Shown here piece after piece: positions 5,088 to 11,663 of a stretch of 64,000 nt of DNA (within the stretch, counting starts at the first letter, position 1; each line of letters opens with the position of its first letter). Location: the NCBI GenBank assembly GCA_020850945.1, contig JADZDR010000050.1, forward strand, positions 1 through 64,000. The letters run 5' to 3'. A model generated the notes under the pieces. It worked only from the letters and a program-made list of their open reading frames with translations. It had not been told where the DNA came from and made no database searches. The DNA is from Acidimicrobiia bacterium. Its GTDB lineage: Bacteria; Actinomycetota; Acidimicrobiia; UBA2766. A program made the translations under genes and the position numbers.

Positions 5088-6182
5088 ATGCGTGGGTTCG
5101 GGTGGGGACACCGGGTCGCGGCGGGGTTGCTGTGCGCTCTGATCGTGACGGCCTGCTCCGGCTCACGTCCCCCCACCCCACGAACCGATGTCCGCACCGG
5201 CGTGCGCGCCGAAACCCCGTTCAGGCGCTGGGACGTCGTACGCCGCGCAATTGCCGGCCTCGGGGGTGTGGTCGCCGTCGGCACAGGAGACGACGGTGCC
5301 GTCGCGTGGGTGTCGAGCTCCGGCGGCCGCTGGGAGCGCTTCCTGATCGAGGCGGGAAGGGCGCATGCCGACACGCTCGCCACGGACGGCACGACCTACG
5401 TGGCCACCGGCCTCACCGCCGATACCGCGCGTGTTTGGACATCGGTCGACGGCCGCGCCTGGAAGTCCCTTCCGGCTCCCCCGCTCCCGGCCGGCACCGG
5501 TTTCACGGGATCCGCGATCCGAGATGGATCGATCCTCGTCGTAGGCGAGCGGCCCGTGGGTGATGCCCAAACAGTTCCCTTTGCGTGGCGCCTCGCGGGC
5601 GGGGTCTGGGAGGAGCAGCTCCTGCCGCTCCTCCCAGGTGCCGAATCGCTCGGGGTCGTGAACGATGTCATCGCGGCCCAGGACACGTTCGTCGCCGTCG
5701 GCGCCGTGCTCGGTCTCGACCTGCCCGTGTGCGGCGCCGTGTGGACGTGGACGGGTCACGGGTGGGAGCGCAGCCGTACGATCGAGGATCCGGGTGGAAG
5801 CGACTTCGAGCTCCTCGCCGTCCAGGTCGGCACCGGTGGTTTGACTGCCTCGGCCGGCGTCTACGACAACTGGGACGAACCGGGCGCGGGCGGTGAGTCG
5901 GTGATCGTAGGTGACCTCCTGGGCGAGGTGCGCGTCGAATCCGTGGAAGCCGAACCGGGCGCCGAGATCCGCCCCTACGTGGCTGCCGGGGTGGAGTGGC
6001 TCCTCGTGAAAGAAGGAAGGGCGGGACGCAGCCGTGTCCTCTCTCGCTCCGCGCCCGGCTCGGTCCGCTCCTGGACGGAGATCGGGATGCCCGGCCTCGC
6101 GACCGAGCTCGTCGTCAGCGGTGGATCGGCACTTGCGTTCGTGGTGGACACGAGCGGGGTCACGCAGGTCGTGCCCCTCTGA
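5088..6182 (+). CDS. Putative lipoprotein with beta-propeller-like repeats
   Basis: This is a 364-residue predicted lipoprotein. The N-terminus MRGFGWGHRVAAGLLCALIV runs into TACSG, whose Cys fits a lipobox, so lipidation and surface anchoring are likely. The mature part contains recurring segments such as VWTSVDGRAWKSLP and VWTWTGHGWERS. Their T-x-DG-x-x-W spacing resembles sialidase/BNR-type blades, so a beta-propeller fold is inferred. No catalytic residues can be assigned. It is divergent from the DUF4139 gene, with a 69-nt shared upstream region, and converges on uvrB. Confidence 0.75.
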   Translation: MRGFGWGHRVAAGLLCALIVTACSGSRPPTPRTDVRTGVRAETPFRRWDVVRRAIAGLGGVVAVGTGDDGAVAWVSSSGGRWERFLIEAGRAHADTLATDGTTYVATGLTADTARVWTSVDGRAWKSLPAPPLPAGTGFTGSAIRDGSILVVGERPVGDAQTVPFAWRLAGGVWEEQLLPLLPGAESLGVVNDVIAAQDTFVAVGAVLGLDLPVCGAVWTWTGHGWERSRTIEDPGGSDFELLAVQVGTGGLTASAGVYDNWDEPGAGGESVIVGDLLGEVRVESVEAEPGAEIRPYVAAGVEWLLVKEGRAGRSRVLSRSAPGSVRSWTEIGMPGLATELVVSGGSALAFVVDTSGVTQVVPL

Positions 6183-6235
6183 CCGGACCGCGTCGATGCC
6201 TGCGCCGCCGTGGCCTCCATGCGCCGGGGCAACCC

Positions 6236-8311
6236 TCAACTGATCGCGTCGGTCAGCTCACGTAGTTCCGTCCGCAGGGCCCTGATCTCGTCTCGCAGGC
6301 GGGCGGCATATTCGAACTCGAGCTTCTTGGCCGCGGCATGCATCTCGGCCTCGAGCGTGTCGATGAGGCGGCGGATGTCGTCGGTCGGCATGAGGTCGGC
6401 ACCCGGCGCGACACGCCCGCCGCTGCCCCGATCCACCCGCGGATCACCCGTCGCAACGCGGGCATCACGGGGCCGGCGCCGCTCTTCCGCCGTGGGCAGG
6501 GGTGCGAGCCCGTCATCTCGCACGATCGAGAGGATGTCGCTGATCCGCTTGCGGATCGTCTGCGGATCGATGCCGTGCTCGGTGTTGTATGCGCTCTGCA
6601 AGGCACGGCGCCGATTCGTCTCGCTCAGCGCCGAGCGCATCGAGTCCGTCACGTTGTCGGCGTACATGACGACCGAGCCGTCCACGTTCCGGGCCGCGCG
6701 GCCGATCGTCTGGATGAGCGACGTCTGCGAGCGCAGGAAGCCCTCCTTGTCGGCATCGAGGATCGCGACGAGGGAGACCTCGGGCAGGTCGAGCCCCTCC
6801 CGCAGGAGGTTGATCCCCACGAGGACGTCGAACTCGCCGAGCCTGAGATCCCGCAGGATCTCCACGCGCTGCAGGGTGTCGACCTCGCTGTGGAGGTACC
6901 GGACGCGGATCCCCATCTCGAGCAGGTAGTCGGTGAGATCCTCGGCCATCTTCTTCGTCAGCGTCGTCACGAGGACACGGTCGTTCCGAGAGGCCCGTGC
7001 CTTGATGAGGCCGATGAGGTCGTCGATCTGTCCCTCGGTCGGCTTCACCACCACTTCGGGATCGAGCAGACCCGTCGGGCGCACGATCTGCTCGACGACC
7101 TGGTCGCTCTCGGCCAGCTCGTAGGCACTGGGCGTCGCGGAGAGGAACAGGCACTGACCGATACGGGACATGATCTCGTCGAAGCGGAGGGGGCGGTTGT
7201 CGAGGGCGCACGGGAGCCGGAAGCCGTGCTCGACGAGGATCTCCTTGCGGGATCTGTCCCCCTCGTACTGCCCGTGCAACTGGGGCACCGTGACGTGGCT
7301 CTCGTCGATCACGACAAGGAAGTCGTCGGGGAAGTAGTCGAGGAGACAGTAAGGCGTCTCGCCCGGCTCGCGCCCGTCGAGGTGGCGCGAGTAGTTCTCG
7401 ATGCCGTTGCAGTATCCGACCTCACGGAGCATCTCCAGGTCGTAGTTGGTGCGCATGCGAAGGCGCTGCGCCTCCAACAGCTTCCCCTCCCTGTCGAGGA
7501 CTGCGAGGCGCTCGGCGAGCTCTGTCTCGATGGCGCCGATCGCCCGCTCGAGCGTCTCGCGTGTCGTGGTGTAGTGCGTCGCCGGATAGATGGCGATCTC
7601 GTCGAGCTCCCCCACGATCTCGCCCGTGAGCGGATTGACCCGGGTGATGCGGTCCACCTCGTCGCCGAACATCTCGACGCGGATACCGAGCTCGTCGTAT
7701 GCGGGGAACACCTCGAGCGTGTCGCCGCGGACACGGAACTTGCCGCGGGTGAAGTTGAGGTCGTTCCGTTCGTACTGGATGCCCACGAGGCGGGCGAGCA
7801 TCTCGTCGCGGTCGTGTACGTCACCCGCACGCAGGTACACGAGGTTCGATTCGTATTCCTCGGGGGAGCCCAGTCCGTAGATGGCGGACACCGAGGCGAC
7901 GCAGATGACGTCGCGGCGATGCAGGACGGCAGAGGTCGCGGCGTGCCGGAGGCGGTCGATCTCGTCGTTGATCGAGGCGTCCTTCTCGATGTAGGTGTCC
8001 GTCTGCGGGACGTATGCCTCGGGCTGGTAGTAGTCGTAGTAGCTCACGAAGTACTCGACGCGGTTCTCCGGGAACAGCTCGCGGAACTCGTTCGCGAGCT
8101 GCGCGGCAAGCGCCTTGTTCGGCGCGAGGACGAGGGCAGGCCGGTTCAACGCCGCGATCACGTGTGCCGCCGTGTACGTCTTGCCCGTTCCCGTGACACC
8201 GAGCAGGGTCTGGAACCTGAGGCCGTCCTCGAAACCCTGCGTGAGGGCGGCGATCGCCTTCGGTTGGTCACCCGCCGGCTTGAACTCCGAGGTGAGAGCG
8301 AACTCCTTCAC
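6236..8311 (-). CDS. uvrB: UvrABC excinuclease subunit B
   Basis: UvrB is the central helicase-like subunit that verifies damage and recruits UvrC. The 691-residue frame has Walker A GVTGTGKT (about residues 38-45), the damage-probing beta-hairpin region [12 protein letters not shown] (about 90-101), helicase motif QTIGRAARN and a C-terminal UVR domain ([16 protein letters not shown]) that contacts UvrC. The GTG start at 8311 aligns with the family N-terminus ([17 protein letters not shown]). No Shine-Dalgarno is present. A TACACT box ends 7 nt before the GTG, so the transcript is probably leaderless. A perfect 30-bp palindrome covers the -35 region. Confidence 0.97.
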
Positions 8312-8318
8312 GCGTTCG

Positions 8319-8324
8319 AGTGTA
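8319..8324 (-). promoter_or_regulatory. -10 box of uvrB, leaderless arrangement
   Basis: TACACT on the reverse strand is followed by 7 nt and the GTG start of uvrB. The spacing places transcription start at or next to the start codon. The position upstream where a -35 box would sit is occupied by the 8332-8361 palindrome, so this promoter is probably controlled by whatever binds there. Confidence 0.5.
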
Positions 8325-8325
8325 T

Positions 8326-8367
8326 CTGGGTACCTGAGCGGCGATATATCGCCGCTCAGGTCCCCAG
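8326..8367. repeat. 42-bp near-perfect palindrome, possible uvrB operator or terminator
   Basis: Positions 8332-8361 form a perfect 30-bp palindrome with the centre CGATATATCG. With one mismatched pair (8331/8362) it extends by five more pairs on each side, to 8326-8367. It lies entirely between the stop codon of the HAD hydrolase gene (8368) and the uvrB start (8311). It spans about -15 to -56 relative to the predicted leaderless start. Either a dimeric repressor operator or a hairpin terminator for the upstream gene is possible. There is no U-run after it on the transcribed strand, which weakens the terminator reading. Confidence 0.85.
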
Positions 8368-9072
8368 TTACAGGTCGAGGAGGGGGGTGAGGTCCCGCAG
8401 GGACCTGATCCGGAGCCCCTCGAAGTCCGGGTGACGGTCGTAGCGGTCGAGGAGGACACCGCGGATGCCGACCGCCGCCGGTCCGTTCACGTCCGACTCG
8501 AGCGAATCCCCCACCATGACCGCCTCGTGCGGCTCGATGCCCGCCTCCTCCAACGCGATCCGGTAGATGCGGGGATCGGGCTTCTCGATTCCGACGCGAC
8601 CCGAGACCGTGACCGGTGACATGACGGGGGCGAGGCCGAGGTGACCGAGGAGCTCGGGCAGCCATGCCTCCCAGTTGGAGACCACCCCTGCACGGCAGCC
8701 CGCCTCGACGACCTCGTGCACCGCCTCCTCGGCGCCGTCGAGGAGGCCGTACGTGTCGAGCTGCGTGAACCTGTCGTAGACGAGGGCAGGCAACCCCGGC
8801 GGAGCGTCGAGACCGAGCTCGACGAGGAGCTCACGATACAGCCCGTGCCAGAACCGGCGTGAGAGTGACTCGTCGAGAGAGAACGCCCGCGCGTCGGAGG
8901 CGGCCACGCGCCGCCCGAAACGAGCCATCTCGCGCGCGAAGAGTGCGCTCGCCTCGTCGGCACTCACGACCAAGCCGGCGGAGGAGCAGACGTCGGCGAA
9001 GTGGTGGCCCCAGGAGGGACACGGCGCGATCAACGTCTCCCCGGCATCGAAGAGGACGAGCCTGACGGTCAC
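8368..9072 (-). CDS. HAD-superfamily hydrolase
   Basis: A 234-residue haloacid-dehalogenase-type phosphatase. Motif I is LFDAGETL, where the first Asp is the expected nucleophile and the second acidic residue is replaced by Gly, as in HDHD3-like members. Motif II is VVSN, motif III is the Lys of GIEKPDP, and motif IV is VGDSLESD. A helical cap lies between motifs I and II (about residues 20-110). The substrate cannot be told from sequence. The GTG start overlaps the coaE stop in a GTGA quartet, so translation is probably coupled to coaE. Confidence 0.9.
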
Positions 9073-9737
9073 GGATCAGACTCGGCCGGATCCGCCGCAC
9101 GGTCGGCATTCCGCAGGGCGACGAGCTCGTCCCACACCTCGTCCACCCGCCTCGTGAGGTCCAGCCTGCTCCCGTTGTTCCAGATGACGATATCGGCCTT
9201 CGCGATCTTCTCCTCGACGGGGGCCTGTGCCGCCATACGGGCCAATGCATCCTCCTCTGACATGCCCCTGTCCCCCACCATGCGTTCGACTTGGCGCTCT
9301 GCGTCCGCCGCGACGACGATGAGCGTGCCGAGGCCCTCCCATCCGGACTCGACGAGCAGGGCGGCATCGACGACGACGATGTTGTCGGTGTCCCGCTGCG
9401 CCTCGATGCGCTCGACGATCGTGCGTCCGATGTCGGGGTAGAGGATCGCGCGCAGCCGCGCGTTCGCGTCCGCGTCCTCGAAGACGATGCGGCCGAGGGC
9501 CTCACGATCGAGCTCACCCGCGGGCGTGAGGACCCCCTCGCCGAAGTCGGCGACGATGGCGGCGAGCCCGGGTGTTCCCGGCTCGACCACCTCACGGGCG
9601 ATCTTGTCGGCATCGATGAGGACGGCGCCCTTGGCAGCGAGAAGCTGTGACACCGTGCTCTTGCCCGAGGCGATACCCCCGGTGAGTCCCACTTGGTACA
9701 AGACGGACCAGACCTCCGCGTCGATGGAACCGCCCAT
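9069..9737 (-). CDS. coaE: Dephospho-CoA kinase
   Basis: CoaE phosphorylates dephospho-CoA in the last step of coenzyme A synthesis. The 222-residue protein has the P-loop GLTGGIASGKST near its N-terminus, the LIDADKIAREVV segment and the VVVDAALLVESGWE nucleotide-kinase motif. The family normally starts close to the VGLTGG segment. ATG 9737 adds about 15 residues, and a TTG codon just before YQVGLTGG (GGAGG upstream) is an alternative start. It is coupled to the HAD hydrolase downstream and divergent from the sensor kinase at 9825. Placement near rpsA and uvrB is typical of actinobacteria. Confidence 0.95.
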   Translation of the reverse strand: MGGSIDAEVWSVLYQVGLTGGIASGKSTVSQLLAAKGAVLIDADKIAREVVEPGTPGLAAIVADFGEGVLTPAGELDREALGRIVFEDADANARLRAILYPDIGRTIVERIEAQRDTDNIVVVDAALLVESGWEGLGTLIVVAADAERQVERMVGDRGMSEEDALARMAAQAPVEEKIAKADIVIWNNGSRLDLTRRVDEVWDELVALRNADRAADPAESDP

Positions 9738-9824
9738 CTCCCTGAATCCCGGGGGATGGGAAGCCGATGGAGATGTTGGCAGCGAACCCGTACGAGATCG
9801 AAGTGGAGAGGGGGGTTGGACCGC

Positions 9825-11663
9825 ATGCCCGACGGCAGCATCGCCACCGCGGATCCGGAGAGACCGGTGCCGGCGCGTGCCCCGAACGGCGGAGACGCAG
9901 CCTCTCCCCGCAGGTCCGGCGGTATGAGACCCCTCCCCCCCGCCGCGGCCCTCTTCAGATGGGGGTCCCTCGCTCTCGCTGTCCTCCTGGCCGTGTTCGA
10001 CCCCGATGTCTCCCCCCTCGCAACGGCCGGGGCCGCCGTGTGCGGTCTCGCCCTCGTCGCCGCGCAGCCGCTGATGGAACGGCGGGTCATGCAGCGCCGC
10101 GGGATCGCCGCCGGCGTCGTCCTCGCCGAGGTCGTGGTCGTGTCGGCCGTCGTCGTCATGACCGGAACCTGGTCGAGCCCGTTCCTGCTCTTCGCCTTCG
10201 TACCGGTCCTCGACGCCGGGTTCCTCCTCGGCCTGCGGACTGCCATCGCGACCGCTGCCCTCGCCGGAGCCATCCCGGCCCTCACCGTCGCCACGACCCC
10301 TCCGGTCTCCACCTCGGACTGGCAGGCGGCGGCCGTGTGGACCTTCTGCTGGCTCGTCGCCGGCGCTGTCGCCTCGTACGCCCGCAGTCAGGCCTCCGCT
10401 CTTGCCACATGGCAGCGGCTCCTCGACACGGAACGTCGCGAGTCGGCGCTGCGCCTCGCGAGCATCGAGGACGCCAACCTCCTCCTCGCGGAGCTGCACG
10501 AGCTCGCCATGACGCTGCCGGCGACTCTCGACTCGGAAGGACTCGTCGAGGCGACCCTCGACCGCGTGCAGGAGATCTTCCCCTCGAAGACCGCGGCCGT
10601 GATCGCCGTCGACGACACGCGCTTTCGGATCCTGGGTGCGCGAGGTGCGGCCCTGCCGATCGTGCCCATACCACGATCGGAAGCACCGCCACCCCTCCGC
10701 ATCGCAACCGAGCGCCCCGTCACTGCCGTGCACGTGGAGGCAGGCGCGACCTTGGATCCCGCAGCCGGATCCCTCCTCTACGTGCCGCTGCGGAGTGAGG
10801 GCACGACGATCGGGGTTCTCGCGCTCGAGGACGACGACCCCGAGCGATTCGGCACGGACGACATCGCGCTCCTGTCAGGCTTTGCCGGGCCCGTCGCCGT
10901 GTCACTCGAGAATGCCCGCCTCTTCTCGCGCCTGCGCGCCCTGGCCACGTCCGAGGAGCGATCTCGGATCGCGAGGGAGCTCCACGACCGTACGGCACAG
11001 CACCTCGCCGCGATCGCATTCGAGCTCGACGTCCTCGCCCGCCGTGCGTCGAAGGCAGCGACCCGCACGGCCTCGCGGCTGGAGGCTGGCTCGCTCGACT
11101 CTGATGCCGCCGCAGCCGAGCTTGCCGCGACGACGCAGGCACCCTCACCGCCGGAATCCGGAACCGACACCGACCTCGTGTCCGAGATCGACACCCTCTC
11201 GAAGGAGATCCGGAGGGCCATCGAGGACCTGCGGATCACGATCGGCGACCTCCGTACCGACGTAACGGAACAGCGGGGTCTCATAGAGCTCCTGCGTGAG
11301 CACGCCCCCGCCGTGGCGGCGAAGGCCCGTATGCAGGTCGAGCTCGCGCTTCCCCCGGACGGAGTCCGCCTGCCCCTGCCGCAGGAACGGGAGCTGTGGC
11401 GCATCTGCCAGGAGGCCATCGGCAACATCGTCAAGCACTCCGACACCGAGACGTTCAAAGTCGCGTTTCATGTGACCCGCGAAACAGCCGATCTCCGTAT
11501 CGAAGACACCGGCTGTGGATTCGACCCCCGCATCTCCAAGCCCGGGCATTTCGGTCTCACGGGAATGTCGGAGCGGGCGGAGGCGATAGGGGCCGAGTTC
11601 AGCCTGGAGAGCGTGCAGGGACAAGGGACAGAGGTCTACGTCACTCTCCGGAGAAGGACATGA
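9825..11663 (+). CDS. NarL-family sensor histidine kinase with GAF domain
   Basis: A 612-residue membrane sensor kinase. After a polar N-terminal tail it has several hydrophobic segments (about residues 40-150), then a GAF-type domain (about 190-360, containing SLLYVPLRSEGTTIGVLALED). The HisKA_3 dimerisation helix follows, with the phospho-acceptor in RELHDRTAQHL. It ends with a HATPase domain (QEAIGNIVKHS, IEDTGCGFD, GLTGMSERAEAIGA). An Ala/Thr/Ser-rich insert sits between the two HisKA_3 helices. ATG 9825 is preceded by a purine-rich GGAGAGG stretch at a long distance; an ATG at 9924 is an alternative. The response regulator starts 10 nt downstream. The signal is unknown. Confidence 0.9.
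   Translation: MPDGSIATADPERPVPARAPNGGDAASPRRSGGMRPLPPAAALFRWGSLALAVLLAVFDPDVSPLATAGAAVCGLALVAAQPLMERRVMQRRGIAAGVVLAEVVVVSAVVVMTGTWSSPFLLFAFVPVLDAGFLLGLRTAIATAALAGAIPALTVATTPPVSTSDWQAAAVWTFCWLVAGAVASYARSQASALATWQRLLDTERRESALRLASIEDANLLLAELHELAMTLPATLDSEGLVEATLDRVQEIFPSKTAAVIAVDDTRFRILGARGAALPIVPIPRSEAPPPLRIATERPVTAVHVEAGATLDPAAGSLLYVPLRSEGTTIGVLALEDDDPERFGTDDIALLSGFAGPVAVSLENARLFSRLRALATSEERSRIARELHDRTAQHLAAIAFELDVLARRASKAATRTASRLEAGSLDSDAAAAELAATTQAPSPPESGTDTDLVSEIDTLSKEIRRAIEDLRITIGDLRTDVTEQRGLIELLREHAPAVAAKARMQVELALPPDGVRLPLPQERELWRICQEAIGNIVKHSDTETFKVAFHVTRETADLRIEDTGCGFDPRISKPGHFGLTGMSERAEAIGAEFSLESVQGQGTEVYVTLRRRT

Follow-up and report, generated by a model that had tools for sequence, protein, structure and literature searches.

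A palindrome at the uvrB promoter of an Acidimicrobiia bacterium as a probable copy of a dispersed, REPIN-like hairpin

The palindrome at the uvrB promoter of an Acidimicrobiia bacterium is probably one copy of a non-autonomous and most likely mobile hairpin of the REPIN/RPE-like type, which belongs to a wider family in the Acidimicrobiia and may have secondary effects at the 3' ends of genes. The direct evidence consists of the number and identity of the copies, their bias towards the 3' ends of genes, the covariation of the two arms, the skeleton shared among genomes and the occurrence of the element in one genome but not in another, seen for one intergenic position and one gene. Four genomes are referred to throughout, namely the genome of the window (G000; 3.9 Mb in 97 contigs), the window being the whole stretch of 64,000 nucleotides analyzed, one genome of the same genus (G001) and two of the same family (G002 and G003). 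A further family of the Acidimicrobiia is denoted f7. The class assignment is supported by the named uvrB records closest to the gene of the window, several of which belong to Acidimicrobiales or Acidimicrobiaceae.

The palindrome occupies positions 8326-8367 of the window, where it is the longest inverted repeat. As the preliminary description had stated, it is perfect over 30 bp (8332-8361, by sequence inspection and an inverted-repeat scan) and near-perfect over 42 bp, with a single mismatched pair (8331/8362). Position 37 of this copy differs from the consensus of the 54 copies described below. Alignment of the wider family together with covariation delimits an 18-nt stem arm (8327-8344) and an 18-nt partner arm (8349-8366), and the alignment places a TATA tetraloop (8345-8348; YATR in the family) between them. 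A covariance model that already included the G000 consensus matches the palindrome at 8327-8366. Weak pairing extends to 8321-8372, giving 26-nt arms that are 92% paired, and folding of the strand yields a z-score of -7.0 with none of 200 shuffles being equally stable. A half-site with fewer than three mismatches was found in the window at the uvrB palindrome alone.

The order of elements on the minus strand is coaE (presumably, as the gene upstream of the HAD gene was named from its sequence), a HAD-family hydrolase gene (8368-9072), the palindrome, TACACT (8319-8324) and uvrB (6236-8311, with a GTG start called), both the hydrolase and uvrB being assigned by gene calling and annotation. The stop codon TAA of the HAD gene (8370-8368) directly precedes the palindrome, and one base separates the end of the palindrome from TACACT, which is likely the -10 box of a leaderless uvrB promoter, so that the -35 region is covered by the palindrome; the span from the upstream stop to the promoter had thus been described correctly. 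No GAACNNNNGTTC site with zero or one mismatch was found at 6140-10077 around uvrB. We take GAACNNNNGTTC to be the consensus used for the actinobacterial LexA box, and the earlier statement that the palindrome holds no LexA box stands for that consensus. An exact GAACNNNNGTTC occurs in the window at a single site, 2704-2715.

A total of 57 copies of a 26-bp core were found in G000 when up to three mismatches were allowed, with none in the control, so that the motif, whose uniqueness in the genome the preliminary description had considered, is a repeat family. No copy of this core was found in 59 other genomes including the same-genus and two same-family genomes, and the exact 20-bp arm matched no contig among about 85,000 species genomes of the GTDB species collection, from which records of the genome itself were possibly excluded. 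Among the matches listed, 54 of the 57 copies were read with their flanks, leaving a few imperfect ones outside, and a half copy located where contig C54 ends (L075) is not among them. The G000 unit is CTGGGTACCTGAGCGGCGATATATCGCCGCTCAGGTACCCAG, 42 bp in length. Forty-three of the 54 copies are identical over all 42 bp, nine including the window copy carry one change, one carries two changes that restore pairing and one is truncated by a contig end. Lone arms were not found in G000 apart from contig edges. The near-identity of the copies says that their spread, or their homogenization, was recent, since the aligned part of the ffh region shows about 76-77% identity to the nearest relative compared. 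The unit CTGGGTACCTGAGCGGCGATATATCGCCGCTCAGGTACCCAG would have spread by mobility, recently and within one species, to about 57 sites. Six pairs of G000 copies lie less than 2.4 kb apart (L059, L064, L065, L068, L076, L081) compared to 1.9 expected at random (P = 0.009), each pair enclosing one to a few genes.

The flanks of the G000 copies, 105 in number, share a short pattern. In 98% of them an A or T adjoins the core, G predominates at positions 6 and 8 (63% and 72%), and there is scant compositional signal past about position 11, which gives the pattern W-N4-G-N-G with no GTAG or CGTC tag. Left and right flanks are complementary above the permuted level at positions 1-3 (z of 5.3, 3.8 and 3.4), and the stems are often lengthened by complementary flanks specific to the copy. 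Direct repeats show no excess at short lags and a deficit at lags 1-4 and 6, and target duplication was rejected for lack of any such excess at the element ends. Flank composition also indicates that a U-tract is absent on both sides of the hairpin.

Comparison with relatives provided filled and empty sites. Between ffh and rpsP, the unit lies 11 nt past the ffh stop codon in G000 and is absent in G001, where the remaining spacer up to the common TGATAGAGTT is 46 nt compared to about 50 nt in G000 (counted by eye). In G003, a unit inside a Methyltransf_28 gene encodes a 13-residue in-frame insertion that is absent from the syntenic gene of G000, while in G000 a unit is found in frame in an epimerase gene, within a stretch that is 24 residues longer than PDB 3oh8. 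These three cases argue for movement, and the copies look inserted as judged from the aligned sequences. The alignable filled and empty pairs number one intergenic and one coding, other intergenic DNA of the same genus being mostly unalignable or non-syntenic in the stretches compared.

At uvrB itself the palindrome is absent in G001 (92% uvrB identity), G003 (81%) and G002 (76%), and TACACT is retained near the uvrB start without the palindrome in G001 and G003. A 276-kb scan of G003 revealed two perfect palindromes with a common core, and this core was found in 51 copies with up to two mismatches, with none in the control and none in G000-G002. Forty-nine family copies were listed, one further row being a chance match, and 46 had gene context. 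The G003 unit is also 42 bp long, TTGGAGCA-NNNN-GCGGCCACATGTGGCCGC-NNNN-TGCTCCAA, and the two halves of its variable block are complementary at positions 2-4 in 96-98% of the 45 copies with full flanks compared to 39-53% when permuted. No GTAG or CGTC tag was found in its flanks. Many G003 copies have an extra degenerate right arm, TGGCCGC..TGCTCC, on the side opposite to the nearest stop codon (L282, L283, L290, L293, L297-L299, L303, L305, L307, L310, L317, L319, L156), and the unit can therefore be longer and oriented. A second palindromic repeat of G003, CCCAAACGCGGG...CCCGCGTTTGG, is present in two tandem copies upstream of uvrB (L088), and its words recur in several other stretches (L145-L164).

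An ungapped overlay of the G000 and G003 units shows a common TGG near the outer end, GCGGC further inward and an A-N-A centre. With up to two mismatches, this skeleton was matched in ten of 395 genomes of the class: G000 (58 matches), G003 (48), seven f7 genomes with 1-10 each, of which the single match is chance-like, and one genome elsewhere with a chance-like single match; the controls gave one match in each of four genomes. A skeleton specific to f7 was found in 13 of the 395 genomes, all belonging to f7, with none in the controls. A relaxed skeleton was found in 27 of the 395, with 56 copies in G000, 44 in G003 and 2-29 in each of sixteen f7 genomes, and outside f7 with two in one genome of family f27 and single matches in eight others, singles being noise as the controls also give them in seven genomes by our count. 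The f27 genome (G332, 72% complete) has its two f7-type copies at C1:42241 and C18:4654, through either transfer or contamination. The family skeleton consists of a TGG outer end, an 18-bp stem with G-C at pair 15 and a YATR tetraloop; the arm sequences built on it change from species to species. The family is present in two families of the Acidimicrobiia, with at least 16 genomes in the second.

G001 and G002 gave no match in the core search or in any skeleton search. A search with covariance model R1 over 44 loci of these two genomes (534 kb) and 41 uvrB or ffh loci of other genomes gave no match, and a long-hairpin scan of the uvrB loci of 80 named genomes found no family member. Several perfect or near-perfect loopless palindromes of 36-46 bp, each with its own sequence, were observed in 369 kb of G002 (L105, L110, L112, L114, L116, L120) and are possibly bidirectional terminators.

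Pairing of the arms is maintained across the variants. In an alignment of 50 distinct sequences (two from G000, nine from G003 and 39 from f7) that were chosen by hand rather than at random, 92.2% of cells in the 18-bp stem with its 4-nt loop pair compared to 66.8% when shuffled, two-sided changes occur at 13 of the 18 stem pairs, and the covariation score is 0.588 compared to 0.149 for shuffled and 0.07-0.11 for slid structures. These variants were found by patterns that fix positions, so that only the free positions are informative about pairing, and the relatedness of the variants raises the values of the shuffled controls. Among 85 distinct f7 variants, likewise hand-chosen, all the free stem positions 7-12 pair above chance, while the first loop position does not (0.36 compared to 0.44 by chance). 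This unpaired loop position within a pairing stem favours a hairpin strand closed by a YATR loop over duplex symmetry. Many f7 copies have differing middle blocks in their two arms, the bases outside the f7 unit are copy-specific and yet often complementary, and some f7 copies have CGTC beside the stem. The G-U share of the non-Watson-Crick cells is 0.15 in f7 compared to 0.12 when permuted, and in G003 it is zero of six.

The copies are strongly biased towards the ends of genes. Gene calls were made by a custom caller based on codon usage, and tRNA genes are not among them. Fifty-three of the 54 G000 copies lie outside called genes and one lies inside a gene; 15 are found between convergent genes, 26 between tandem genes, seven between divergent genes and five at a contig end beside a gene end. 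Two of the copies scored as tandem (L051, L064) actually adjoin the 3' ends of tRNAs. Forty-one of the 54 have a stop codon no more than 50 nt away compared to 21% of random intergenic points, the stop is nearer than the start for 44 of them compared to 34% at random, and the excess of convergent over divergent copies is highly significant after correction for the intergenic base share (p = 1.5e-6). In G003, a stop codon lies no more than 15 nt from the start of 28 of 46 copies compared to 10% at random, and the 27 f7 copies with context, tallied by hand with one non-family row excluded, comprise 16 convergent, six tandem, four divergent and one at a contig end. A TGA inside the unit serves as the stop codon of 11 G000 genes (e.g., in L046, L047, L053 and L084), whose proteins end in Leu-Gly-Thr, and only a single G000 gene continues through the unit, which it does in a different frame.

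No carrier or mobilizing gene was found in the searches carried out. PF01797, the RAYT/Y1 domain, is absent from all four genomes G000-G003 and present in five of 14 control genomes, and RAYT or IS200-type mobilization was rejected for these four genomes. Transposases were found neither among the 99 neighbour genes of the G000 copies nor among ten genes at an f7 locus in G330, where three copies occur within 4 kb. Viral contigs gave no match for the 20-bp arm, the f7 skeleton or the G003 pattern, phage records gave none, and plasmids gave one weak match, to a Streptomyces plasmid (E = 0.1); carriage by phages or plasmids was rejected on these grounds. The absence of lone arms led us to reject IS ends or a MITE with a parent element, as well as the idea of uptake sequences in the form of inverted pairs of a frequent word. 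The four Rfam matches listed all fall below the gathering score and are chance-like.

From this evidence we infer mobility as the cause of the dispersal, the hairpin as its substrate and any effect on uvrB. The element would be copied as a unit and would insert with no duplication of its target, in most cases shortly past the end of a gene and seldom in frame within one. Its paired arms would be kept either because a mobilizing enzyme recognizes the single-stranded hairpin or because one arm serves as the template for the other. The uvrB copy would have inserted into the space that separates the HAD stop codon from the -10 box, where any effect, such as a 3'-end hairpin for the HAD transcript or replacement of the -35 region, would be secondary. 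Placement at gene ends can be explained for a mobile unit by selection against damage together with a target preference, or by use as a 3'-end hairpin. More tentatively, and with some doubt, we suggest a class-wide hairpin family mobilized by an enzyme other than RAYT/Y1 that would recognize a fixed frame (the TGG end, the inner G pair and the YATR loop), with both arms rewritten together and a spelling of the species' own at dozens of gene ends, the mixed arms being crossovers or repair through the loop.

The mobile reading has against it that no mobilizing gene came to light in the four genomes and the gene neighbourhoods searched and that the same-genus G001 showed no member in the stretches read or by pattern search. 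A function under selection would likewise be compatible with the strong 3'-end placement and the preserved pairing. The copies could be functional 3'-end hairpins, i.e., terminators or mRNA stabilizers acting in both directions between convergent genes, which were selected and homogenized and which at uvrB end the coaE-HAD transcript and insulate the promoter. The closeness to stop codons in G000 and G003, the convergent excess, the maintained pairing and the stems prolonged by copy-specific flanks agree with this explanation, which we nevertheless regard as unlikely, because a terminator needs no fixed 42-bp sequence while a copied unit does; the hairpins also lack a U-tract on either side, lie between divergent genes in seven of 54 cases and in frame in two genes, and show little G-U excess. 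The hairpin that was earlier proposed to terminate the coaE unit and insulate uvrB may keep its part as a strong 3'-end structure with maintained pairing, while the missing U-tract and the divergent copies speak against a terminator.

Sites for a recombinase or a chromosome-organizing protein, consisting of two inverted boxes with a short centre, would account for the conserved outer and inner boxes of f7, its variable middle block and its copies with unlike arms, the latter as crossovers through the centre. We consider such sites improbable, as an unpaired loop with a covarying stem is more easily reconciled with a hairpin than with a duplex site, the copies showed no regular spacing and the near-invariance of 42 of 42 bases in G000 goes beyond the usual need of binding. 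An operator for a regulator of DNA damage or another response acting on uvrB, as the preliminary description had suggested from the covered -35 region and the lack of a LexA-type box nearby, is very improbable in view of the roughly 57 copies placed mostly at gene ends and the absence of the palindrome at uvrB in G001-G003. The 99 neighbours, identified with Pfam, belong to core metabolism, transport and housekeeping and form no repair regulon; the preliminary description had proposed a search for the motif near other repair genes, and uvrB and one 5'-3' exonuclease are the only repair-like genes among them. A LexA-like or other damage operator was consequently rejected.

A copied hairpin of probable mobility removes the supposed regulatory puzzle at uvrB. 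It also offers a clean actinobacterial set, with about 57 near-identical copies in one genome, 51 of another spelling in a relative and a second family represented by at least 16 genomes. The natural filled and empty sites and the covariation record make it testable what copies REPIN-like hairpins without a RAYT and why they are found at gene ends.

Several known systems resemble these elements. An intrinsic terminator is a stable hairpin just behind a stop codon followed by a U-tract; our hairpins share the position behind stop codons and differ in the absent U-tract, the fixed sequence and the copies found between divergent genes and inside genes. MITEs are defined by a target-site duplication and a parent element with the same ends, a definition taken partly from PMC10969869. 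The elements studied here are likewise small, non-coding and dispersed with inverted arms, as that paper describes for MITEs, but neither a target duplication nor a parent element with matching ends was found in an assembly that may miss repeats. The same paper describes Rickettsia palindromic elements as palindromic units in frame within unrelated genes, about 150 bp long and mostly intragenic (PMC10969869), whereas our units are 42 bp long, mostly intergenic and in frame in one G003 and one G000 gene.

The best-known examples of short mobile palindromes come from proteobacteria, where RAYT transposases frequently accompany them (PMC3733652, PMC3116915). Tagged REPs resemble our family in being palindromes of extragenic space close to the ends of genes, in occasionally providing the stop codon and in forming subfamilies with alternative complementary stem residues, but they have stems of 5-13 bp and GTAG/CGTC tags (PMC3733652) where the stem here is 18 bp and untagged in G000 and G003. 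Work cited in the RepRanger paper (PMC12306157) finds that translation is lowered by REPs located up to 15 nt from a stop codon, and by analogy the same is possible for hairpins near the stop here. A stem-loop survey is given in PMC2267715. Titles and abstracts listed by our literature search, which covered few subscription papers, describe no such palindromes in Acidimicrobiia. REPINs are inverted REP doublets that form hairpins and are thought to move as single-stranded DNA hairpins (PMC3116915). They are built from 16-mers separated by a spacer (in GI, the invariant 16-mers stand 71 bp apart; PMC3116915), whereas our units have 18-bp arms and a 4-nt loop, no lone arms and no RAYT (PF01797) in the four genomes. 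Short inverted arms, extragenic dispersal, copying as a unit, compensatory changes and a species-specific sequence are common to both (PMC3116915), and the dispersed inverted arms of our family form a hairpin by fold and covariation. We do not file the family under REP, RPE or MITE, since it has no GTAG/CGTC tag and no Y1 transposase, has the wrong length, and shows neither target duplication nor a parent. The best reading is an undescribed, REPIN-like hairpin family, which as far as seen works like a REPIN.
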